Shown one piece after another: positions 6,336 through 47,113 of a stretch of DNA of 64,000 nt; positions within the stretch are counted from its first letter, which is position 1, and the number at the start of each line of letters is the position of its first letter. Below the pieces are notes generated by a model. That model saw nothing but the letters and a program-made list of their open reading frames with translations. It did no database searches and was not told where the DNA came from. The stretch is from Blumeriella jaapii (taxonomy: Eukaryota; Ascomycota; Leotiomycetes; Helotiales; Drepanopezizaceae), in the NCBI GenBank assembly GCA_009599575.1, contig VWND01000001.1, positions 1,364,001-1,428,000 of the forward strand. Direction: 5' to 3'. The position numbers and the translations under genes were made by a program.

Positions 6336-6795
6336 GGTTGTATTGGTGTAGTGTTGATGCCGATAGCTGGCTTCGGGATCAGCTTGAAGCTTGAAGATGC
6401 CAGCTTTCGAGCCACAGGTGCAGCCGCAGCCGTCTAGATCCTTGGCCAGGCCAAGGCTGAGAACTCGCTAAAAACCCCTCAACCGTTGTTTACTCGACAG
6501 ACGTCGTCGGGTTGTTTTCTTTTCTCCTTGAAAAGCTTGCAAGCTCTTGCTTAAATTGATGCATTCAGACTATGCTCTTCACTCTAGACATGTACTGTAA
6601 CAGTAGGGAATACACAAGCCTTGCCGAACTTTTGCGGAGTTAGCTCAAGTCTGCAATGCAAAAAACGTGCAAGTAACTTCCCACAATCACGTCATAATTT
6701 GTACATTCCCAACAAAGATTACAAGTGTCCAAGACTCGGCATTCGAGTAGCAAGCAGAACCAGGAGAAAAAAAAAGGCAAGAAAAAAATAGTGGA
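6336..6795. other. Intergenic: glucosidase II beta promoter side and tRNA-Tyr 3' flank
   Basis: No gene seen. It contains the upstream region of glucosidase II beta and, at its right end, A-rich runs that form the Pol III terminator of the minus-strand tRNA-Tyr. Confidence 0.5.
6782..6788 (-). terminator. Pol III terminator of tRNA-Tyr
   Basis: Seven consecutive T on the minus strand, starting 8 nt after the tRNA 3' end; a standard RNA polymerase III stop signal. Confidence 0.8.
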
Positions 6796-6883
6796 TCCCC
6801 CAGGCGCGAGTCGAACGCGCGACATTCGGATGATACTGAGCAAATTACAGTCCGACGCCATAAACCAACTAGACGACCGGGGG
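6796..6883 (-). tRNA. tRNA-Tyr(GUA) with a 13-nt anticodon-loop intron
   Basis: The minus strand folds as a complete tRNA. The acceptor arm pairs CCCCCGG with CTGGGGG; the anticodon stem pairs TCGGA with TCCGA; the T arm is GCGCG-TTCGACT-CGCGC. The anticodon GTA is at 6848-6846. An intron of 13 nt (6844-6832) follows position 37, the canonical place, and every fungal tRNA-Tyr has an intron there. Mature length is about 75 nt. The intron would be cut by the Sen endonuclease and joined by Trl1, which is encoded at 44.4-47.1 kb. Internal A and B boxes are present. Confidence 0.93.
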
Positions 6884-7741
6884 AATTCGTAAAAGATTGG
6901 CCGGCACCGAGTCTTATAACCGAGGTGGGTTTTTTTTTAACCGGGGAATGTCTGTCGTCCTTGGCATCCAATGCGATATTTATTGATTCTCAGGCCAGTA
7001 AATTTAACGGAGGACACTTGCCCCAGGTTCCCAACACAGCTAAGCAATGGGAGGAGAAGATTTAAATGGCCGGTTGTTCGAGAGATCAGCAAGGCGACTG
7101 TGGCCCGTTACGTATTTCCAATGAACAAAAACGTTCGAAGCACAGATCGAGGACACAGATTTTATCTCAACTGCATAAGAATGCAAGAGAAACCACTTTC
7201 CATTGCGTCGCGGAGAGTTTAAGCGTGCATCTCAAGTCAATGTTGGGTTGAGGGAGTGAATGGTTTTAAGCCGGAATGAAAGTGCTTTCTATTGGTATTA
7301 AGCTCCTTAATTCTTCGTCCGGTAGTCCCAACCTGAAGAGATATTATCATTGGTCTTGGAAGTTCGTTTAGCTCCCAGAGGTCACAAAATCGGTTAAAGT
7401 AAAAGCCGCGATAGGAATGGTAATCCTGCACAAGGCGGAAATACTCTCGCGTTGAGCAACAGAAAAAGAGGGCGCAGAGCACACACGAAATCCTTAGTGT
7501 CTTCATCAGGGAGCTGGCTGAGCTTGATATCTGCTGCGTACCTAAGGTTGGGACAGAGACGCTTGCATTGAAGGGCTCTCTACCAACCCCATAACCGTTC
7601 TACAGCAGAACCGCTTCGGTCATCATCGATACGGCGAATCCGGACGTGTGACCTACACACGCTCTCCCATCTCAAATACCCAACCCCTACTCAGCCAGCA
7701 AGTCTCCCGCCATCTCCACCCCCCCTCCCACACACAGCCCT
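6884..7741. other. Intergenic, no gene recognised
   Basis: 858 bp between tRNA-Tyr and the DUF1304 stop codon. There are only short, unconserved open frames. A T8 run lies at about 6930-6938. Confidence 0.4.
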
Positions 7742-13918: not shown

Positions 13919-16900
13919 ATGAATCGTTTTCGGGCGAAGAAGAAGGCCAGAGACGCAGTGCCCGACGGGCCCCTGAGGGCTTCCACGGATTCAGAGGGAC
14001 CGCCGCCCGCTAGCAAGGCCCCGAAGACGTTTCGACTTGGGGGAAAGAAACCACAAGAACCAGAACCCAAACCAGAGATCGATCTTTCGACCGCGTTGCC
14101 TTCGTCGGATGACTTTCGGACAAGTTTGTTAATGAGTGGTCTCTCGGCACGGTTTTCCATGCTTCGCGAACAAGACGATCCCACGTCGAAAATTGGAAAA
14201 GCCAGCGACGACAGTGTCTTGTTTCCCAAACATCAATCGAGATTTAACGATTTCAACTTCTCCTCGCAAGGCCTCTCAGATATTGCGGAGGTTGCCTCCA
14301 TCAATGACTCGATACGACCCCCATTCGCATGCGGCAGGAAAGATTCCTTCGTTGGATCAGAGGAATATGCGTCAGATGCTGATTCGATGCATGGGAGTAT
14401 AATGAGCAGGGGGAAGCCTGGAGAAGGGAACAATTTGTTTGGAGGTCGGCAAAAGATCATGATGGGAAACAGGGCGTTGTACGACAACGATGTCAGTCAA
14501 TCGACGTTCCGAAAGATCCGCGAGCGGGAAAAGGAACACAAGGAGCAAGAGAGATTGCGGGAAGAGCTGGAGGCGGAATCTTCACGGCCCAGCTCACCAC
14601 CACTTTCCGGATACAATCGGAATAGAGAAACCTCATCCACGACGTCCTCTGCAGGACCGTCTACAACGAGAAGCTCCACAGCCGCAACCTCGTTCACGTC
14701 GCAACGAACGCCTTCGTTGAGCGGCAGCCAAGCTCCCATCACGCCTGCTATACCTAGCAACTCTGCTCCGGAGAAACCAGCAACCAAAACTCGACGGTTA
14801 TATGAGACTGGACTCGACAACCACTTGCACGAACAGCAGTTTTCTGCGATGAGCAGAATCGATTCGCTGACGAGACAACGCACCCTGGGTGCCAATACCC
14901 CACCTCGCGGACACTCACCAACACATGGCCAGGCCCCGGCAGACAAGTGGGAGCGGCCTCTCAATAGGAAACAGAGCCTCACAAGTTTTCACACCATGAG
15001 CCCCCCACTGTCTGGTGCTGCACTGGGCAAATTTGACTTTGGAGTCCGCAAAAACAGCAACGCTGATACAAGGCCGTACGGATTTGCTGCGCCTCCACTC
15101 AGTCCTCCTATGACGGAGTTCGATGAGCAGGGAGTCCTGTCGGTCGAGCCAAACGACAAGGGGAAAGCCACAGCGTCGGGTGCCTTCTCGAGACCAGCTC
15201 CATTTGATGACCTCAAGTACTCCGAAAGACAACTTCAAATGCAACATGGCCGAGCGACATCACCTCCAAGAAAGAACTCGCTTCCTCAAACCTTTGTCTT
15301 CCGGCAACAAGAACAACAGCAGGCAGAGAACAGGACTCGAGCAGAGCCCAGCTATGCGTATGCCACTGGAAGATCCAGGTCCAACTCATCGGCGCAAGGA
15401 GCATTGATTTCTCACGATCACAACCGGGAGTCGCCAACGAACGAGCCCTCGCTCTCTGAATATCAAACAGACAACTCAGCAACTTCCTTGGCATCTCCCC
15501 GTGACATGGAAACGGATCATCATTCGAGACCCACCCACCACCCTGAACCACTGGATTTGTCTAGAACCTTTCGTCAGGATCAAGGGACTAGAATCGAACG
15601 CCCTGATGAGTCTCAACATCCTGCAAACCGGCAGCAAAGCAATGATGGCGCTGCGGACTCTAGCTCTGCATTCTCCAGTGATCTACAGTCGGAGACTGCG
15701 CATGCAACCCAATCAACACAACAACCTGCCGAGTCACCCCTTTTTCCCGAAACAGGCTTGAGTGGTTTAGTCCGCTCGCATTTGAGGTCTGATAGTAATA
15801 CTTCGTTTGCATACGACGGTAGGGAGCCTTTGCCGCACAATGAGTACAGGGCGGGGAATCTTTCATGGGAAAATGAGCACTGGGACCAAGATTTCAATCA
15901 GCCACCACCTTTTTCTACGCGTTCGCCAAGCCTTGAAAGAGCCGGCAAAGCCTCCTGGGGAAGAGAAATGCAGAGCCACCACACTCGGGATGGAAGCTCG
16001 GAGACGCAGAAGGAAGCAGAGGAGTTTGCGAACGAACTTGCTTCGCGGAAACGTCGAGTTCAAGAAAAGATGCAAAGCTTCCATGAGGGCGAAAGTCGAT
16101 CGACAAGTCCCATGCCACCGCATCCTACAGACTTCCCCAAGGAAGCCCATCAAGCTAAGAACAATGCGTTGGGGCTTTTGAAAACGAAAACAAGCATAGG
16201 GTCTTTGGTCGGCAGATCGAAGGACGTAGGCTCGTTCAAGCCTATGAAAATGCTAGGTCTTGGCAACACATCCAATATTCATGAATCGACGTCTTCAAGA
16301 AAGCCTCGCTTCGAAAACAGCCCGTCAAGCCACGATAGGGAAGAGTGGGAGCCGGCCCGTGGCCCTGATTCGGCAGCGCTCCAAGCCGGAGCGTTCCGGG
16401 AAGCACGGAGAGCGGCTCAACGCGATCGGGAACGGGCAATGGCTACGAGACATCAACAAAGGTCAGCCCTAGAAGGTGACCAGCAATGGCCAGGCCATCG
16501 AAACGAGATGGAGAGATCGAGGTTGCCATACCAACGAAAGGACAATTCATGGGTCGATAACACAAAGATGAACAACCCTCACATGGAGAACCCACGAGCG
16601 GAAAACTCTCGTTCGAACAATCCAATGGGAGATCCACGGATGGACCATCGATACCGTCATCAGGAACAGGGCGGGAGAGTTGCCCCTCACATGAAACCTC
16701 GACATCGTACTCCCAGCCGAGAGAGGAAACACCCCCCAGTGGCGTACAACCATCGAAACGGTAACTATACTCAAGAGAATGGGGACAGTAATGGCACGAG
16801 CTATTCCGGATCGCGACCCCCATCTAATGCTCCATCGAATACTTCTCGAGATAGATCCGAATCCGACACCTCTGGCGGGTACACCAGGGGCCCAAATGGC

Positions 16901-17734
16901 TCATACAGAGATGATTTGTCAAATGCCATGACCCAAAGCACTAGCCAAGGTGATTCTGAGGATCGGGGATTTCATCCTTCAACACGTATCGTTACCACAG
17001 CCCCCAATGCTACTGGCGCGGGATTTTCCGCGTCGCGCTCGCCCTTGCCATCTTCAAAAGCAGATACCAACCGCCCTCGAAGTAATAGCAAGCCAATATC
17101 TTCGGGGTACTTGGAGGATTCATCTCTGCAGAAGACTACGGAAGGTTTTGAGATTGGTTCTTTTCGGAGGCCGTCCCCCCCGGCACCTTTTGTCCTACAT
17201 GCCACCCCAGCTCTAGTGCAGCCTTCACCGTCTCTATCAGGAACAAGCACACCGTCATCTCAGGGGTCTCAAGGTCTGCCAGGAACCTTGATGCACAAGA
17301 AGTCGATTTACAAATCAGACATTTCCGAGCCAAAGTTCCTCTCGTCAACATCAAATATGTCAGCGGCCAACATGCCTCCTCTTCAGAATGGGACCGAGCT
17401 CAATGTACCCCCTATTCCTCCCGTCAATCCTAAACGTCGTCAAACTCGCAATATTTTCGGAGAGTTCAGAGGGAGAAGGGACGACGACGAGATTCATTCA
17501 ATGCCCGCCGCTGCCCATTCTACGGAAGAGATGTCTAATTTCTCTGCCGACGAGGGCGACTCAAAGGCAAAGCCAACGATCCGTACGAAACTTCGCAAGA
17601 GCATCAGTGAAAAGGGAAGCCTCAACACTCGCGCTCGACAAGTTGCCAACGCTCCCCCGAGTCCGGCTTTGCCAACAGCGTTCTCGCATGGCCCAAGCCC
17701 TTCTACCCGCCCCTGTGAGGGCGCCATGTTTTAG
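13919..17734 (+). CDS. Conserved Pezizomycotina protein, 1271 aa, mostly disordered; function unknown
   Basis: A single open exon of 1271 residues. I know no domain in it. The N-terminal ~130 residues look most constrained: a basic start (MNRFRAKKKARDA), then DDFRTSLLMSGLSARFSMLR and DDPTSKIGKASDDSVLFPK, which I recall from related ascomycete proteins. Next comes a charged coiled-coil patch (about 195-215, REREKEHKEQERLREELE). The rest is Ser/Pro/Gln/Asn-rich low complexity, with an Arg/Asn/Met-rich stretch around residues 865-910 (PHMENPRAENSR) and a basic tail. The composition suggests a scaffold or regulatory protein. Upstream lies a long leader with a likely intron. That it is a real gene is firm; its role is unknown. 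Confidence 0.85.
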   Translation: MNRFRAKKKARDAVPDGPLRASTDSEGPPPASKAPKTFRLGGKKPQEPEPKPEIDLSTALPSSDDFRTSLLMSGLSARFSMLREQDDPTSKIGKASDDSVLFPKHQSRFNDFNFSSQGLSDIAEVASINDSIRPPFACGRKDSFVGSEEYASDADSMHGSIMSRGKPGEGNNLFGGRQKIMMGNRALYDNDVSQSTFRKIREREKEHKEQERLREELEAESSRPSSPPLSGYNRNRETSSTTSSAGPSTTRSSTAATSFTSQRTPSLSGSQAPITPAIPSNSAPEKPATKTRRLYETGLDNHLHEQQFSAMSRIDSLTRQRTLGANTPPRGHSPTHGQAPADKWERPLNRKQSLTSFHTMSPPLSGAALGKFDFGVRKNSNADTRPYGFAAPPLSPPMTEFDEQGVLSVEPNDKGKATASGAFSRPAPFDDLKYSERQLQMQHGRATSPPRKNSLPQTFVFRQQEQQQAENRTRAEPSYAYATGRSRSNSSAQGALISHDHNRESPTNEPSLSEYQTDNSATSLASPRDMETDHHSRPTHHPEPLDLSRTFRQDQGTRIERPDESQHPANRQQSNDGAADSSSAFSSDLQSETAHATQSTQQPAESPLFPETGLSGLVRSHLRSDSNTSFAYDGREPLPHNEYRAGNLSWENEHWDQDFNQPPPFSTRSPSLERAGKASWGREMQSHHTRDGSSETQKEAEEFANELASRKRRVQEKMQSFHEGESRSTSPMPPHPTDFPKEAHQAKNNALGLLKTKTSIGSLVGRSKDVGSFKPMKMLGLGNTSNIHESTSSRKPRFENSPSSHDREEWEPARGPDSAALQAGAFREARRAAQRDRERAMATRHQQRSALEGDQQWPGHRNEMERSRLPYQRKDNSWVDNTKMNNPHMENPRAENSRSNNPMGDPRMDHRYRHQEQGGRVAPHMKPRHRTPSRERKHPPVAYNHRNGNYTQENGDSNGTSYSGSRPPSNAPSNTSRDRSESDTSGGYTRGPNGSYRDDLSNAMTQSTSQGDSEDRGFHPSTRIVTTAPNATGAGFSASRSPLPSSKADTNRPRSNSKPISSGYLEDSSLQKTTEGFEIGSFRRPSPPAPFVLHATPALVQPSPSLSGTSTPSSQGSQGLPGTLMHKKSIYKSDISEPKFLSSTSNMSAANMPPLQNGTELNVPPIPPVNPKRRQTRNIFGEFRGRRDDDEIHSMPAAAHSTEEMSNFSADEGDSKAKPTIRTKLRKSISEKGSLNTRARQVANAPPSPALPTAFSHGPSPSTRPCEGAMF

Positions 17735-19428: not shown

Positions 19429-19578
19429 TCCGCTATGGTGGTAAGTGCACTTCACACCTTTCGCTACAGATCTTGCACTAACAGGGTCCCCAGTAACGGT
19501 CAGCATACTGCCTTTTCATAAACCGTCCTGTACGGCATGATATCGGCGGAGACCGGGGTTCGATTCCCCGTAGCGGAG
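19429..19578 (+). tRNA. tRNA-Glu(UUC) interrupted twice: 53-bp spliceosomal-type insert in the D arm plus 25-bp anticodon intron
   Basis: Segments 19429-19440, 19494-19518 and 19544-19578 join into a regular 72-nt tRNA. The acceptor arm pairs TCCGCTA with TAGCGGA; the anticodon arm is CTGCC-TTTTCAC-GGCGG with anticodon TTC (19515-19517); the T arm is CGGGG-TTCGATT-CCCCG. The 25-bp insert (19519-19543) follows position 37, the normal tRNA intron site. The other insert (19441-19493) splits the D stem after position 12, inside the A box. It begins GTAAGT, has CACTAAC at 19476-19482 and ends CCCCAG, like a spliceosomal intron. The B box GGTTCGATTCC is intact and a T7 terminator follows. It could be a live gene spliced twice or a pseudogene; the perfect arms favour a live gene. 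Confidence 0.85.
19441..19493 (+). other. Spliceosomal-like intron inside the tRNA-Glu D arm
   Basis: 53 bp with a perfect GTAAGT donor, a CTAAC branch site whose A (19481) is 12 nt before the terminal AG, and a C-rich run before the acceptor. This matches the mRNA introns of neighbouring genes. Removing exactly these bases restores the D arm and A box. Confidence 0.75.
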
Positions 19579-19583
19579 AATAA

Positions 19584-19590
19584 TTTTTTT
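19584..19590 (+). terminator. Pol III terminator of tRNA-Glu
   Basis: Seven T starting 6 nt past the discriminator base, supporting transcription of the interrupted tRNA gene. Confidence 0.8.
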
Positions 19591-20948: not shown

Positions 20949-23208
20949 ATGGCTCCCGCAGCTGCAGCCACGAAAGCTCTTCAGCAGAATCGCCCTCGTC
21001 CTAGATCAGTCGTACCTGTCATCCCGCTGCTTTACGTTCAGAAGCGCCAGCAACAGGAGGCAGCTCGTGCCAAAGCCAGAGAGGAAGCTATTGTGCCTAC
21101 GCCTACTCCCGCTCCCGTCGTCGAACTACCACGCTCTCCAACACCACCCTCCAGCGACAGCTCCCCGACTGCTGCCAATGCCTCATCCGATGACCAAATT
21201 TCAGAGAAGATAGAGGCGGTAGTCGAGCCTACGCCTCTCTCTTCAGCTACCATTCCGGATGTGTCGCTGGAGGAAGAACATAATGCTGCTCCTGAGGAGT
21301 CGGAGGTCTTTGTCCAAGAAAAGATGTCTGGTAAGCAGATTCCTTCTGTTCGGTAAACAGACCTTATACTGAAATCCACTAACTCTTGTTACAGAAGGTG
21401 TGCAAGAGATTCCAACCCCAAAATCAATCCCATCCGAAGGTCGATCCTCTACATCTCGGTCCACTTACCACATGCCTCCACCGTTCGTTCCTGCAACCAA
21501 CAACCAGCCAAACGGTAATAATACGGCCCCGCCCATCAACGCGACCAACGGCCATTATTCACTGCACCACCCCCATCCCAGTGTCGCAAATGTCATGTTT
21601 GGTGGCTTCCCTGATTCAGCGAGATCTTCTCCAGCACCTCCCCCACTCAACCCCCAACAATACCCTCAGATGGCTCCTGCTACAGATGGAGGATACCGCC
21701 CTCGATTCCCACCTAACGGCCATGCTCAAAGCATGTCTATTGGTTACCCTGTTAATGGTACACCTGCAGCTCCTCCAGGGTTCTTTCCGCGTGAAGACGG
21801 CCACGCTGGTTTTCGTCAACCCCCATATGCTGGTCCGGACGGCTATTCTTCCTCTACAACTGCTATGGGTGACCAGCTGCGGATGAGCCAGGACCCCTTA
21901 TCTCCACACAGCTTCCACGGATCCCAGTCGTCGATCGTCAATGAACAAGAGGCCGCCGGTCCTGCCTTTTGTAGCCAATACCCCACCGCTGTCATCTCGA
22001 ACGGCAGCAATGGCCACATCGAAGATGTTCGCCTTCTCCACAACACGCGTCCAAATTACATCCCTCCTCCTGCCCATCCTTTCGGTTCATACCTGCCTGA
22101 TGAACTTGATGGCTGGCACATGTACCTGCAAACTCAATTTAGCAGACCTGAGTACGCAAACTACATTTTTGAGCTTCGGTATTTGGATGACCGTGCTCCG
22201 CCACTTCGCATCCCTGGGCACGGTATTCTGTTTGCTCAAAGCGGTGTTTTGCGGGCTCTTATGTTGGCTTGTGATGGTCGTGATGGTCACGATGGTCAGG
22301 CAGTCCCAACTCTCCTCGTAGAGTCAGATGATCGCTTCCTACGATCCGATTCGATGTGGTTGTTGCTTCAACGGCTCTACGGAGCACCACTCATAGAGCA
22401 CGGTCCCAGTAGAGCCTACCCATCTTCTCCGTTCCAGAACCCACCTGCTGATCCTTTCGGGTTTGCTCTTGGCTATGCAGCAGCAGCTAAACTTCTTGCT
22501 ATGAGAACCGCTTCCGACCGTGGAATGGAGGTTGCCGCTCAACTGCTCAACTGGGACAATATTGAGAGGGCACTAGATTTTGCGACGGACGGTGGTCTCG
22601 CTCCTAATTGGTCACTTGGGTTTTCGTCCCCCAACTTCCCAGACAACGTCCCTACTTATGGACCGGGCGCTAATATCCTCCTTCACCACATTATGCGATT
22701 CATCATTGCGAGCTTCCCCGCTGGATTCGTTTTGGACAATTCTGTTGAAGACCTAACGATCCTTCGCCGACTTCCGGTAATTTCCCAGGCAGGCCAAAAC
22801 TCCCGCCTCAGCTCTATCAAATTTGGGGATCACGCGTCCGAGGAGTATGTTCGGTCTACCCCCGAAAACTCTATTACTGCATCGCTCTCCAGGCTATTGA
22901 TCAGCCTACCATACGATCTTCTTCGATATGTGCTTGAATCTCCCAACCTTGGCAATGTTCAGGGCTGGGCTACCACCGGCCTCCGGCACAAGGTTATGAG
23001 CGCCGTCGTCGAGGAGCGTGAGAAGCGCCGTATCAAGGCTCTGGAGTCTCCACACGTATCCAACGAAGAGCGGAAGTCTAATGGCAAGGATTGGGAAGTT
23101 GTTGGGTGGATGGAGAAGGTCGAACAGGTCTCGAAGCTACCCAGCAAGGATCCTGTTCCAGCCATCACGAGAAGTTGGGTCGATTTTACGCTACTCGATC
23201 AAGACTGA
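20949..23208 (+). CDS. Fungal protein of 731 aa with a possible BTB-like region; function unknown
   Basis: Two exons, 20949-21330 and 21395-23208; the intron has a GTAAGC donor and an ACTAAC branch. The N-terminal ~330 residues are Pro/Ser/Asn-rich and disordered, opening with an Ala/Gln/Arg segment that includes a coiled-coil patch RQQQEAARAKAREE. The C-terminal half is globular. It starts LDGWHMYLQTQFSRPEYANY, then has a segment with RIPGHGILFAQSGVLRALML, which resembles BTB/POZ folds (substrate-adaptor or dimerisation modules), and a WEVVGWMEKVEQ tail. The repeat GRDGHDG sits in a loop. I recognise it only as a conserved ascomycete hypothetical protein; the BTB comparison is tentative. Confidence 0.8.
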
Positions 23209-32101: not shown

Positions 32102-32182
32102 TGCTTCAGTTCTCCAAGGTAAATGAATGTCTCGTCAAAGATTGACTCGGTAAAACAGCAATAGAGGTTTTCATCATAGCTT
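32102..32182 (-). ncRNA. Box C/D snoRNA, probable LSU rRNA guide
   Basis: On the minus strand, box C ATGATGA (32177-32171) and box D CTGA (32109-32106) are 61 nt apart, with a short GCT/AGC terminal stem. The bases just upstream of box D (32123-32111) can pair with the LSU rRNA segment TCTCCAAGGTGAA: ten Watson-Crick pairs, one G-U, then two more. The fifth base rule would place 2'-O-methylation on the C in TCTC*C. Modest certainty. Confidence 0.6.
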
Positions 32183-32846: not shown

Positions 32847-32945
32847 GAAGGGTCAGACAAGGCTGAAACTTAGTTTGACAGTATCTAACATGCATATCTT
32901 CAGAATGAGGAATTCCTATTTTGTCGAGTGATCATCACCCCCTTC
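32847..32945 (-). ncRNA. Box C/D snoRNA with two 18S rRNA guides (snR41-type)
   Basis: Box C GTGATGA (32938-32932), D' CTGA (32903-32900) and D CTGA (32856-32853). The ends pair (GGGGA with CCCTT, one G-U). Upstream of D, 15 nt are complementary to 18S CAAGGCTGAAACTTA; the fifth-base rule selects the first G of AAGG, the site methylated by yeast snR41 (Gm1126) and animal U32. Upstream of D', 12 nt are complementary to 18S GAGGAATTCCTA near the 3' domain. The methyl group would be added by the fibrillarin/Nop56/Nop58/Snu13 RNP in the nucleolus. rRNA sequences are from memory of S. cerevisiae. Confidence 0.85.
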
Positions 32946-44385: not shown

Positions 44386-47113
44386 TTGATGTCGCGACTG
44401 TTAAAACCAACGTTGACGGTTCCATCATCTCGACTCTTCAGCCTTCTTTCTTCCCCTTCTGTTCCTTCTACTTCCAAGCCCTTGACTGTCTTTCGGCCGG
44501 TCCCATCAGGCAACACCACTCGTGTCGTTGGGCAAAGACTTCTTGCAACGATGGCCGACCTGGGCAAAGTCCCCTACCAGGCACAAGACGTCGAGGAAAA
44601 CCAGGCCCTTCTTAGAAACCTTCAAAGCGGCCTCAAGAAAGACCCCAGAGCGGCCGGTAAGAAAAGCTACAGTTGCAAGAAAACCAGCTTCGAGGTCGTC
44701 CGCTCTCCCGACAAGCTTCTTGTTGACTCATGGCGCTTTCAAGACTGGGATTACAAGCGAAGTGACCTCCCGACCTACGCCCGTGGGCTCTTCACCGGCA
44801 CGAACGCAAAGGGTCAACCCGAGATATGTATCAGAGGCTATGACAAGTTCTTCAACACCGACGAAGTCCATGCTACCAGATGGCAAGCTATTCGGGACGC
44901 CACTAAAGGCCCATACGAGTTGAGTCTCAAAGAGAACGGCTGCATCATCTTCATTAGTGGTCTTCATGATGGCTCCCTACTTGTCTGTAGCAAGCATTCC
45001 ACCGGTCCCAGAAATGGCGAGGTCAGCCATGCTATGGCTGGTGAGAGATGGGTCGACAAACATCTTGCGTCAGTTGGCAAGACACGAGAGGCCCTTTCCA
45101 AGGAGCTACGAAGCAGAAACGCCACAGCTGTCTTCGAACTCTGTGACGATGAGTTTGAGGAGCACATTCTGGCTTACGACGAGAACGAAGCTGGACTGTA
45201 TCTCCACGGTCTCAATATCAACGTCCCGGAATTCATGACATATCCAGGCGAGCAGGTTCAGGCCTTTGCCGAGGATTGGGGCTTTAGAAAGACTGACTTC
45301 CTGGTCTACGATACTATTGATGATACCAAGACGTTCCTTGACGGAGTTGCCGAGACTGGTCATTACAATGGCAGAGATATTGAAGGCTTCGTCATTCGTT
45401 GCAAGGCCCGTCATGGCTCCGGTCGTTACATTGACTGGTTCTTCAAGTACAAGTTTGAAGAACCATATCTGATGTATCGCCAATGGCGCGAGTGCACGAA
45501 GGCTGTCATTAGTGGCAAGACACCTCGATACAAAAAACATGCCAGAATTACGGAGGAGTATCTGCTCTACGTTCGCAAGCGACTGTCAGAGGACTCGAGT
45601 CTCGGTGATGCTTATCAACAGAACCACGGCATTATCAAGTTGCGGAATGACTTTTTGAAGGAGAAAAATCTGAAAGGCTCGGATATCATTCGACAGGAGT
45701 ATGCTGAGCTTGGAGGTGCACCAGAGGACGTATCTGGAAACATCATCCTGGTACCCATAGCAACACTGGGCTGCGGCAAGACGACCATCGCCGTTGCCCT
45801 CACACACCTCTTCAACTGGGGACATGTACAGAACGACAACATCACTGGCAAAGGTCGGCCGCCTCGTTTCACGAAGGAAGTCTTGGGCCAGTTGCGGGAT
45901 ATACCAGTCGTCTTTGCGGATCGAAACAACGCGTCGAAGCATGAGCGTGAGCAGATCATTGGCGACGTCCACTTAACGCACCCCCATGTTCGGCTCGTGG
46001 CACTTAACTTCATCCATTCGCCGGACACCCTTAACAATATCAGATCAGTTACCCAAAGTAGAGTTCTTGCACGCGGCGACAACCATCAGACCATCCAAGC
46101 AGCTTCTGAGTCAAAGAAGGTCATTGGTATCATGGAAAGTTTCATCCACCGCTTCGAGCCTCTGAACTCGGAATCACGCCCAGACGATGGGTTTGACGCT
46201 GTTATCGATCTTGATCCCACTCTAGAGTCCCGCGAGAACTTGGAGACTGTTATTGGGCAACTGCACAACCTGTACCCAAAGCTCATTCCCGAGATGCCAT
46301 CTAGCGAAGATCTCGATGAGGCTATCAAGTACTCCCTCAGCGAGTATAAGCCTGAGATGAGACATGTCGTTGGGGGTAGTGGACCCAGGAATGGGCCAGG
46401 TAGCAGCAACAACAACAAGGCTCAGACGCAGAACCAGAATCAGAATCGGAACCAGAATCAGCCGAAGCAGAACAAGGTAAGTGCAACTGAGCCCTCTGAT
46501 ACTAACCGTCGCAGTCGCTGACCCTGCCAAGAAGCCGAAGCCTCTAGAATATGTTTCGGTAAACCTGCCCAATCCCCAGATCCTCGAGGCCCTCGAAAGC
46601 ACTTTCGCATCTGTCTCGACGACCAAGGCTCGGTTCTTCAGACAGCTCCAGCAGACGCACCGAGTCCAGTCTGAATTCCATGTCACTCTGATCCACCGTG
46701 CGTCTTCGAAGCAAAACCCAGAGCTTTGGCAAAAATACAGCGATCTCCATTCCCTCAATAGTGATCCATTGAGTACGGAGTCCAAGATGGGCACCTGCAA
46801 AGTCTTGTTAGAGAAGGTGAGACTCCTCTGCGGCGAACTCGTACGTTGTCTGTTAACTCGCTCTTAGGTCGTCTGGGATAATCGCATCATGGCCATCGTT
46901 GCGAGACTTGTTGATGAGGGTTGGGAGTGTACTAACCAAGTCGCCCACCTCACTGTTGGTACCAGAGGAAATGATGTCAAGCCGAAGGAGAGTAACGATC
47001 TTCTGAAGCAATGGATGGAGGTTGGCAGCGGCGATGCATCTGGTATCGGAGAAGCTGCCATCGGTGGTCGTCTAGTCCTTGAGGGTACTGTCAAGGGCAT
47101 TCTTTCACGTTAA
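44386..47113 (+). CDS. trl1: Fungal tRNA ligase (ligase-kinase-cyclic phosphodiesterase)
   Basis: Exons 44386-46476, 46532-46816 and 46868-47113; 873 residues. It heals and seals exons after Sen cleavage of pre-tRNA and of HAC1-type mRNA. N-terminal adenylyltransferase: nucleophile Lys182 in SLKENGCIIF, then EGFVIRCK and WFFKYKF. Central polynucleotide kinase: P-loop ATLGCGKTTIAVAL near residue 460. C-terminal cyclic phosphodiesterase: HVTLIHR and HLTVGT, the two HxT motifs. An Asn/Gln-rich linker precedes intron 1. The next in-frame ATG at 44551 (MADLGKVPYQ) has a good context and may be the cytosolic start; the extra 55 residues look like a mitochondrial presequence. Intron 1 has two competing acceptors. 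Confidence 0.92.

Follow-up and report, generated by a model that had tools for sequence, protein, structure and literature searches.

Fungal U6 snRNA and U3 snoRNA genes carry GT-AG introns of the mRNA type inside small structured RNAs; the sections of PMC5832005 drawn on here place the U3 introns mostly in the 5' half (133 of 138), report intron-plus and intron-minus U3 copies within one genome in eight genomes, and describe U3 and U6 as the sole small structured RNAs that were, until then, known for frequent interruption. The genes described below resemble them in the mRNA-type intron and in the coexistence of copies with and without it, but here the interrupted gene encodes a tRNA, has its promoter inside the gene and bears a further intron of the Sen type. 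In the placing of its introns the tRNA-Glu gene reported here resembles nuclear tRNA genes of Cyanidioschyzon merolae, where a D-arm intron at 12/13 occurs together with a 37/38 intron and where, in the cited part of PMC9602550, the D and T introns are presumed to be removed before the anticodon intron. Those introns are of the BHB type and, in the passages used of PMC3978253, are assigned to the tRNA endonuclease, whereas here mRNA splice signals are found and a strict BHB is absent. As exceptions to the usual reading of short D- and T-arm insertions in eukaryotic tRNA genes as marks of pseudogenes, the relevant passages of a 2014 review give nucleomorphs and a red alga (PMC4090602), and a 2026 review states, in the portion cited, that tRNA splicing relies on protein enzymes rather than the spliceosome (PMC13149111). 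The five genes reported below also have canonical 37/38 introns, from which the D-arm insert is distinct, lying elsewhere and bearing other signals. Ascomycete rDNA carries spliceosomal introns as well, likewise of the mRNA type in a structural gene that does not encode mRNA, but there the host is a Pol I rRNA and not a tRNA. The original prediction knew of no described fungal case of a spliceosomal intron in a tRNA gene; our searches of an open-licence library turned up none, fungal or other, a scope outside which most subscription papers lie.

The window, a stretch of 64,000 nucleotides of Blumeriella jaapii DNA (G000:C1:1364001-1428000, within an assembly of 47.4 Mb and 91 contigs that served as search space), contains a tRNA-Glu(UUC) gene in which a 53-nt insert and a 25-nt anticodon-loop intron had been predicted, and the coordinates of both are confirmed (Table 1): with the insert present ARAGORN reports no tRNA, and with it removed tRNA-Glu(ttc) with a 25-nt intron is obtained. 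The program is unable to fix the border of the insert, since 53-nt removals shifted by one or two bases to either side or by three to the right also yield tRNA-Glu, only a shift of three to the left giving none; taken over all shift controls, which are non-discriminating, the right tRNA was returned after 27 of 30 shifted removals. The border was set by base pairing and by a second gene copy, and it can slide by one base, since G12 and the last letter of the insert are both G. Within this slide the insert does lie after position 12 and split the D stem and the A box, as had been proposed, and the T7 run read as a terminator is present. A search with Rfam returned nothing at this gene at Rfam cut-offs, JPX_2 being the sole weak match nearby, below its gathering score.

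Table 1. Features of the window and split tRNA genes elsewhere in the assembly. Positions given without a contig are those of the window; splice signals are listed as 5' splice site / branch site / acceptor, with the distance from branch A to acceptor.
Feature	Position	Strand	Remarks
tRNA-Glu(UUC) 5' exon, nt 1-12 (acceptor 5' strand, first half of D stem / A box)	19429..19440	+	12/12 identical in C13 copy
D-arm insert, 53 nt, spliceosomal-type intron	19441..19493	+	position and length shared with C13 copy; GT, CTAAC and AG kept
Insert 5' splice site, GTAAGT	19441-19446	+	from sequence
Insert branch site CACTAAC and 3' splice site CAG	CAG at 19491-19493	+	from sequence
Conserved 3' core of insert	19459..19493	+	contains predicted branch-point hairpin GATCTTG-CACTAA-CAGGGTC
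tRNA-Glu exon 2 (remainder of D arm to position 37, anticodon TTC)	19494..19518	+	25/25 identical in C13 copy
Canonical anticodon-loop intron, 25 nt, Sen-type	19519..19543	+	ARAGORN: 25-nt intron in anticodon loop
tRNA-Glu exon 3, B box GGTTCGATTCC	19544..19578	+	35/35 identical in C13 copy
T7 run, presumed Pol III terminator	19584..19590	+	from sequence
tRNA-Tyr(gta)	6792-6884	-	13-nt anticodon intron (ARAGORN, introns allowed); anticodon unreadable without this option
Two box C/D snoRNAs	32103-32181 and 32851-32942	-	Aspergillus families Afu_294, Afu_455; about 700 nt apart
tRNA ligase gene (Trl1)	44386-46521	+	RNA_lig_T4_1, tRNA_lig_kinase and tRNA_lig_CPD domains
Glu_C1 insert (window gene), signals			GTAAGT / ACTAAC / CAG; 12 nt; consensus exact
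Glu_C13, second split tRNA-Glu(UUC)	G000:C13:345195-345355	-	GTAGGT / ACTAAC / TAG; 12 nt; one 5'-site mismatch
Gln_C1 (L099), tRNA-Gln(CUG) with D-loop insert	C1:2439061-2439291		GTATGT / GCTAAC / AAG; 12 nt; AAG not YAG at tRNA-restoring AG
Gln_C13 (L119), tRNA-Gln(CUG) with D-loop insert	C13:823111-823341		GTATGT / GCTGAC / AAG; 12 nt; AAG not YAG at tRNA-restoring AG
Split Leu (L126), tRNA-Leu(CAA) with insert	C18:271819-272049	-	GTAAGC / ACTAAC / CAG; 9 nt; one 5'-site mismatch
Unsplit Leu (L169), tRNA-Leu(CAA) without insert	C10:521105-521260

A query of 221 bases matched one other place in the assembly, on contig C13 (86% identical over query bases 30-192), and there the whole split structure recurs. 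The exons of this copy are identical to those of the window gene (72/72 nt), and its insert, of 53 nt (GTAGGT...GAACTAACAAGGTCCCTAG), occupies the same site. When the 78 positions of insert and anticodon intron are taken together, 23 are found to differ (12/53 and 11/25), against 0 of 72 in the exons (Fisher p 5e-8), and despite this divergence GT, CTAAC and AG are kept in both inserts. Nine of the differences within the insert fall in its first 18 nt and three in its last 35; this core differs at 3/35 positions versus 20/43 for the other non-exon nucleotides (p 3e-4). A search for the core (TTTCGCTACAGATCTTGNACTAAC) with up to 3 mismatches returned the two Glu genes and nothing else (2 matches, control 0), on which ground an origin of the insert from an introner or a repeat was rejected. 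Two other candidates were set aside, namely a match of the insert's inner part to the viral contig L092, where ARAGORN finds no tRNA and which was taken as chance, and a pairing of the core TTCGCTAC with the acceptor 3' strand, about one such match being expected by chance according to our estimate. No match was found in GTDB contigs, and none in viral contigs for exon sequence, results that are uninformative on related fungi because these collections are prokaryotic and viral.

According to the original prediction, intact tRNA-Glu(UUC) genes elsewhere, combined with a lack of reads joining the exons, would mark the split gene as a pseudogene. An intact gene was indeed recovered from the genome: besides the split copy on C13, there is a third nuclear tRNA-Glu(UUC) gene (C1:211217-211304, minus) which has a different body and a 16-nt anticodon intron and is intact, without a D insert. 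A search with the D-arm/anticodon stretch (up to 3 mismatches) gave 37 matches, perfect only in the three Glu(UUC) genes and with two mismatches in the next best; the weak matches are noise, since the reversed control gave 108. The D insert is also absent from three tRNA-Glu(CUC) genes. Because of the unsplit third gene, Glu alone is no proof of spliceosome dependence.

The genome was surveyed for further split genes starting from the B box. Exact GGTTCGANTCC B boxes number 90 (66 in the reversed control), or 84 once six on contig C36, which holds the mitochondrial tRNA set, are left aside. Full-length RF00005 matches, from a scan that scored only 63 of 2167 candidates, coincide with 16 of them, two belong to the split Glu genes, and the other 66 sites were fetched as 231-nt pieces, which comprise 11 unsplit tRNA genes (ARAGORN), three split ones and 52 pieces without a tRNA by these tests. 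Altogether 32 tRNA genes were recognised at this B box, 5 of them with a D-arm insert. Among 20 places that have TTTT after one of two other B-box types, two were read, and these held one unsplit tRNA and none, respectively. Over the fetched sequence ARAGORN made 55 distinct predictions outside C36, two of which are miscalled split genes; this set is biased to unsplit genes because the program requires a normal D arm. On the five split genes it gave the right isotype in none before removal of the insert and in all five afterwards, with anticodon introns of 25 nt (Glu_C1 and Glu_C13), 20 nt (Gln_C1), 18 nt (Gln_C13) and 39 nt (Leu). All five are followed by T runs downstream, and the A box is split by the insert in Glu and Leu and intact in Gln. 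The inserts are found in three tRNA families (Glu, Gln and Leu), at three positions, with lengths of 51-61 nt and the order GT..CTRAC..AG.

Some other sites were met in these searches. Contig G000:C36 carries the mitochondrial tRNA set twice, the two sets about 61.4 kb apart; this looks as though a circular genome had been assembled over more than one round. At G000:C91:1026652-1026680 (plus), CTAACCATTTACAG is followed by CCTAATGGTTAAGGC, which resembles the end of an intron running into the D arm of a tRNA; this may be a split tRNA of a fourth family, or a chance match, given that the reversed-pattern control had 7 matches versus 2. Another position, C1:698626, is the third match in one search for further split genes. 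The piece L094 (G000:C1:746532-746762), one of the 52 in which the above tests show no tRNA, has a perfect T arm, B box and T run, with no acceptor partner within the 190 nt examined; its left edge (CTAATGGCAAGGCG) is similar to the D arm seen in tRNA-Arg genes L166 and L168 (CCAATGGCAAGGCG). It is perhaps a tRNA whose insert is longer, or else a chance resemblance. Finally, AAATGGTTAGCGTTCTGCCTTTTCC is present in three copies (G000:C8:1137828, C10:566148 and C21:12445), perhaps a tRNA-derived repeat; the two copies examined sit in T-rich sequence.

In both tRNA-Gln(CUG) genes found, GGTTGCTTGGTGTAATGGT is followed by the insert (54 nt in one, 61 nt in the other; GTATGT...AGTGAAG) and then by TAGCACATCAGATTCTGA, after which come the anticodon intron (20 nt or 18 nt) and a 3' exon of 35 nt. 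Their exons are the same (72/72) and fold as a cloverleaf when spliced, and their inserts share GTATGT, CGCT(A/G)AC, AGTGAAG and a few shorter runs, being elsewhere widely different, with gaps. When the whole assembly was searched for TAGCACATCAGATTCTGA with up to 2 mismatches, two matches were obtained (control 0), both perfect and both in the split genes; no unsplit tRNA-Gln(CUG) was found and, within the reach of this search, all tRNA-Gln(CUG) genes found are split. One unsplit tRNA with a D arm of the Gln(CUG) type (L162), named Ser by ARAGORN, is read as tRNA-Gln(UUG). In the split tRNA-Leu(CAA), GGACAGATG is followed by a 51-nt insert (GTAAGC...CAGTAACTAACAAATCCAG) after nucleotide 9 and then by GCCGAGTGG. 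A 29-nt stretch of its D arm and anticodon occurs, at up to 3 mismatches, only in this gene and in the unsplit tRNA-Leu(CAA) (control 0); the two agree fully in the 38-nt 5' exon and in their last 45 nt, and their anticodon introns differ. They form a clean empty-site pair, in which the exons of the unsplit gene match the spliced product of the other.

These comparisons bear on the question of whether the split genes are pseudogenes, the tRNA being supplied from intact genes. Such is the usual interpretation of eukaryotic D- and T-arm insertions in the passages cited of PMC4090602, and intact genes do exist here for Glu(UUC) and Leu(CAA). We nevertheless hold it unlikely, as the exons, short 5' exons included, are fully conserved between copies in Glu and in Gln while introns and flanks have diverged, as T runs follow every one of the five genes, and as Gln(CUG) is found only in split form.

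The fungal consensus in the cited sections of PMC5832005 is GTRWGT, RCTRAY and YAG, with 6-36 nt from branch to acceptor. All five inserts have GT..AG at the exon borders, which slide by one base in Glu and by one base either way in Leu and were chosen within the D loop in Gln, and all five have RCTRAY 6-36 nt before the acceptor. The 5' site fits GTRWGT exactly in three inserts, GTAGGT and GTAAGC having one mismatch each, and the acceptor is YAG in three (Glu and Leu); both Gln inserts end in AAG, with TAG/CAG 5 nt earlier, 7 nt from branch A. Among single-base shuffles with composition kept, the signal rule (for Glu_C1 a GT(A/G)NG start, CTRAC near the end and a final AG) was satisfied by 4, 3, 2, 1 and 4 of 400,000 for Glu_C1, Glu_C13, Leu, Gln_C1 and Gln_C13, a figure that flatters Gln because its borders were picked partly by these signals.

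Ectopic tRNA introns cut by Sen or a relative at a BHB-like fold, as in C. merolae and crenarchaea, are another reading of the D-arm inserts. It has a precedent in the introns at 12/13 beside an anticodon intron described in the part used of PMC9602550, the fungus encodes Trl1, and the intron-side helix of Gln_C1 pairs in 4 of 4 positions. A strict BHB, with 3-nt bulges flanking a 4-bp central helix at the junctions, is however absent, the central helix having 2, 3, 1, 0 and 0 of 4 pairs and the intron-side helix 0, 0, 1, 4 and 2 of 4 (Glu_C1, Glu_C13, Leu, Gln_C1 and Gln_C13), with alternative registers no better. Moreover, cutting by Sen would leave GT, CTRAC and AG at every insert unexplained, and the D arm is itself recognised by human TSEN in the sections cited of PMC10539383. 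We consider this reading improbable. The candidate mRNA introns of the window carry signals similar to those of the inserts; removal of the one found at position 21331 (64 nt, GTAAGC...CACTAAC...CAG) gives an open frame that resembles, by eye, a Drepanopeziza brunnea protein on both sides. The protein of 21400-23205 is 71% identical to a D. brunnea protein and 56-58% to Diplocarpon and Rhexocercosporidium proteins, which places the fungus among the helotialean ascomycetes, close to Drepanopezizaceae. The normal substrate of the spliceosome being Pol II RNA, the inserts could in principle be Pol II introns, in transcripts that happen to include tRNA sequence, or the signals could be due to chance; the window gene, however, lies between the nearest open reading frames of at least 250 aa (13919-17734 and 21400-23208) and has its own B box and T run, and the signals recur in five genes, which makes this highly improbable.

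The spliceosomal-type intron originally proposed from one tRNA gene is thus supported by five genes in three families and by the plus/minus Leu pair. Judging from sequence, several nuclear tRNA genes of this fungus likely contain, in addition to the anticodon intron, a D-arm intron of the U2 spliceosomal type, 51-61 nt long, which the spliceosome is proposed to remove.

Folding predictions point to a further feature shared by two of the families. In both Glu inserts GATCTTG pairs with CA(G/A)GGTC, leaving the branch site in the loop, and in both Gln inserts TCGCT(A/G) pairs with (T/C)AGTGA, so that branch A opens the loop. A nearer AG lies inside the predicted stem, 3-4 nt from branch A in Glu and 7 in Gln, with the tRNA-restoring AG downstream of it. 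In whole-precursor ensembles the pair probabilities are 0.82-1.0 for Glu and 0.92-0.99 for Gln_C1, and for Gln_C13 five of seven hairpin pairs reach 0.9, the other two 0.56 and 0. In one pair the Gln copies differ by a double change, A-U to G-C, and another pair is U-G in one Glu copy and U-A in the other, a change that may have gone in either direction. Taken alone, the hairpin energies are modestly low in Glu and Gln (z -1.19, -2.54, -2.48 and -1.70), and the Leu insert has no real hairpin by this energy test (z +0.34) and no nearer AG either. The expected number of pairs near branch A is 3.72 (Glu_C1), 6.93 (Glu_C13), 1.69 (Leu), 7.82 (Gln_C1) and 5.89 (Gln_C13), compared with 1.25, 0.07, 0, 3.41, 0.93 and 0 in six candidate mRNA introns, a small and selected control picked by eye from 109 groups, one member of which (3.41) comes close to the weakest Glu insert (3.72). 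We propose that the hairpin may select the exact acceptor, which would account for the conserved core of Glu and the two AGs of Gln.

From the structures, signals, copy comparison and plus/minus pair observed we infer the following course. The split genes would be transcribed by Pol III, as their B boxes and T runs suggest; the split A box in Glu and Leu might weaken such transcription, which counts against this step. The spliceosome would then excise the D-arm intron first, restoring the D stem, after which Sen endonuclease and Trl1, reading the D arm as that of a mature body, would excise the anticodon intron. In the cited sections of PMC10539383, human TSEN is in contact with the D arm and TSEN54 is termed a ruler; because of this contact the D intron should be the first to go. 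In Glu and Gln the hairpin loop would present the branch site and its stem bury the nearer AG, and the AG just beyond the hairpin, 12 nt from branch A, would be used to give the exact tRNA. Counter-evidence comes from Gln, where the AG that gives a normal D loop is preceded by A and a better YAG is located 5 nt upstream. The Trl1 gene lies 25 kb from the split tRNA-Glu gene.

The earlier claim that the pre-tRNA needs the spliceosome as well as Sen and Trl1 is supported by the signals of five genes, from which cutting by the spliceosome is deduced, with a correction for Glu, of which an intact Glu(UUC) gene exists. Since intact Glu(UUC) and Leu(CAA) genes exist, only Gln(CUG) among the three families would be dependent. 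Part of the tRNA of this fungus, apparently including all tRNA-Gln(CUG), is probably made via the spliceosome and then Sen and Trl1, with a hairpin selecting the 3' site in two families.

In the part cited of PMC8450103, tRNAscan-SE 2.0 seeks noncanonical introns in its archaeal mode, and ARAGORN missed three of the five split genes and miscalled two; such genes may for these reasons be absent from annotation or misnamed in it, and, as gene finders miss them, the state may be wider in helotialean fungi. The introns of tRNAs and mRNAs are treated as separate worlds with separate enzymes, a division that would be broken if the present reading is true. The supply of tRNA would then be tied to the activity of the spliceosome, and intron gain in small RNAs would extend from U6 and U3 to tRNAs, with a pair of paralogues, one with and one without the insert, at hand for its study.
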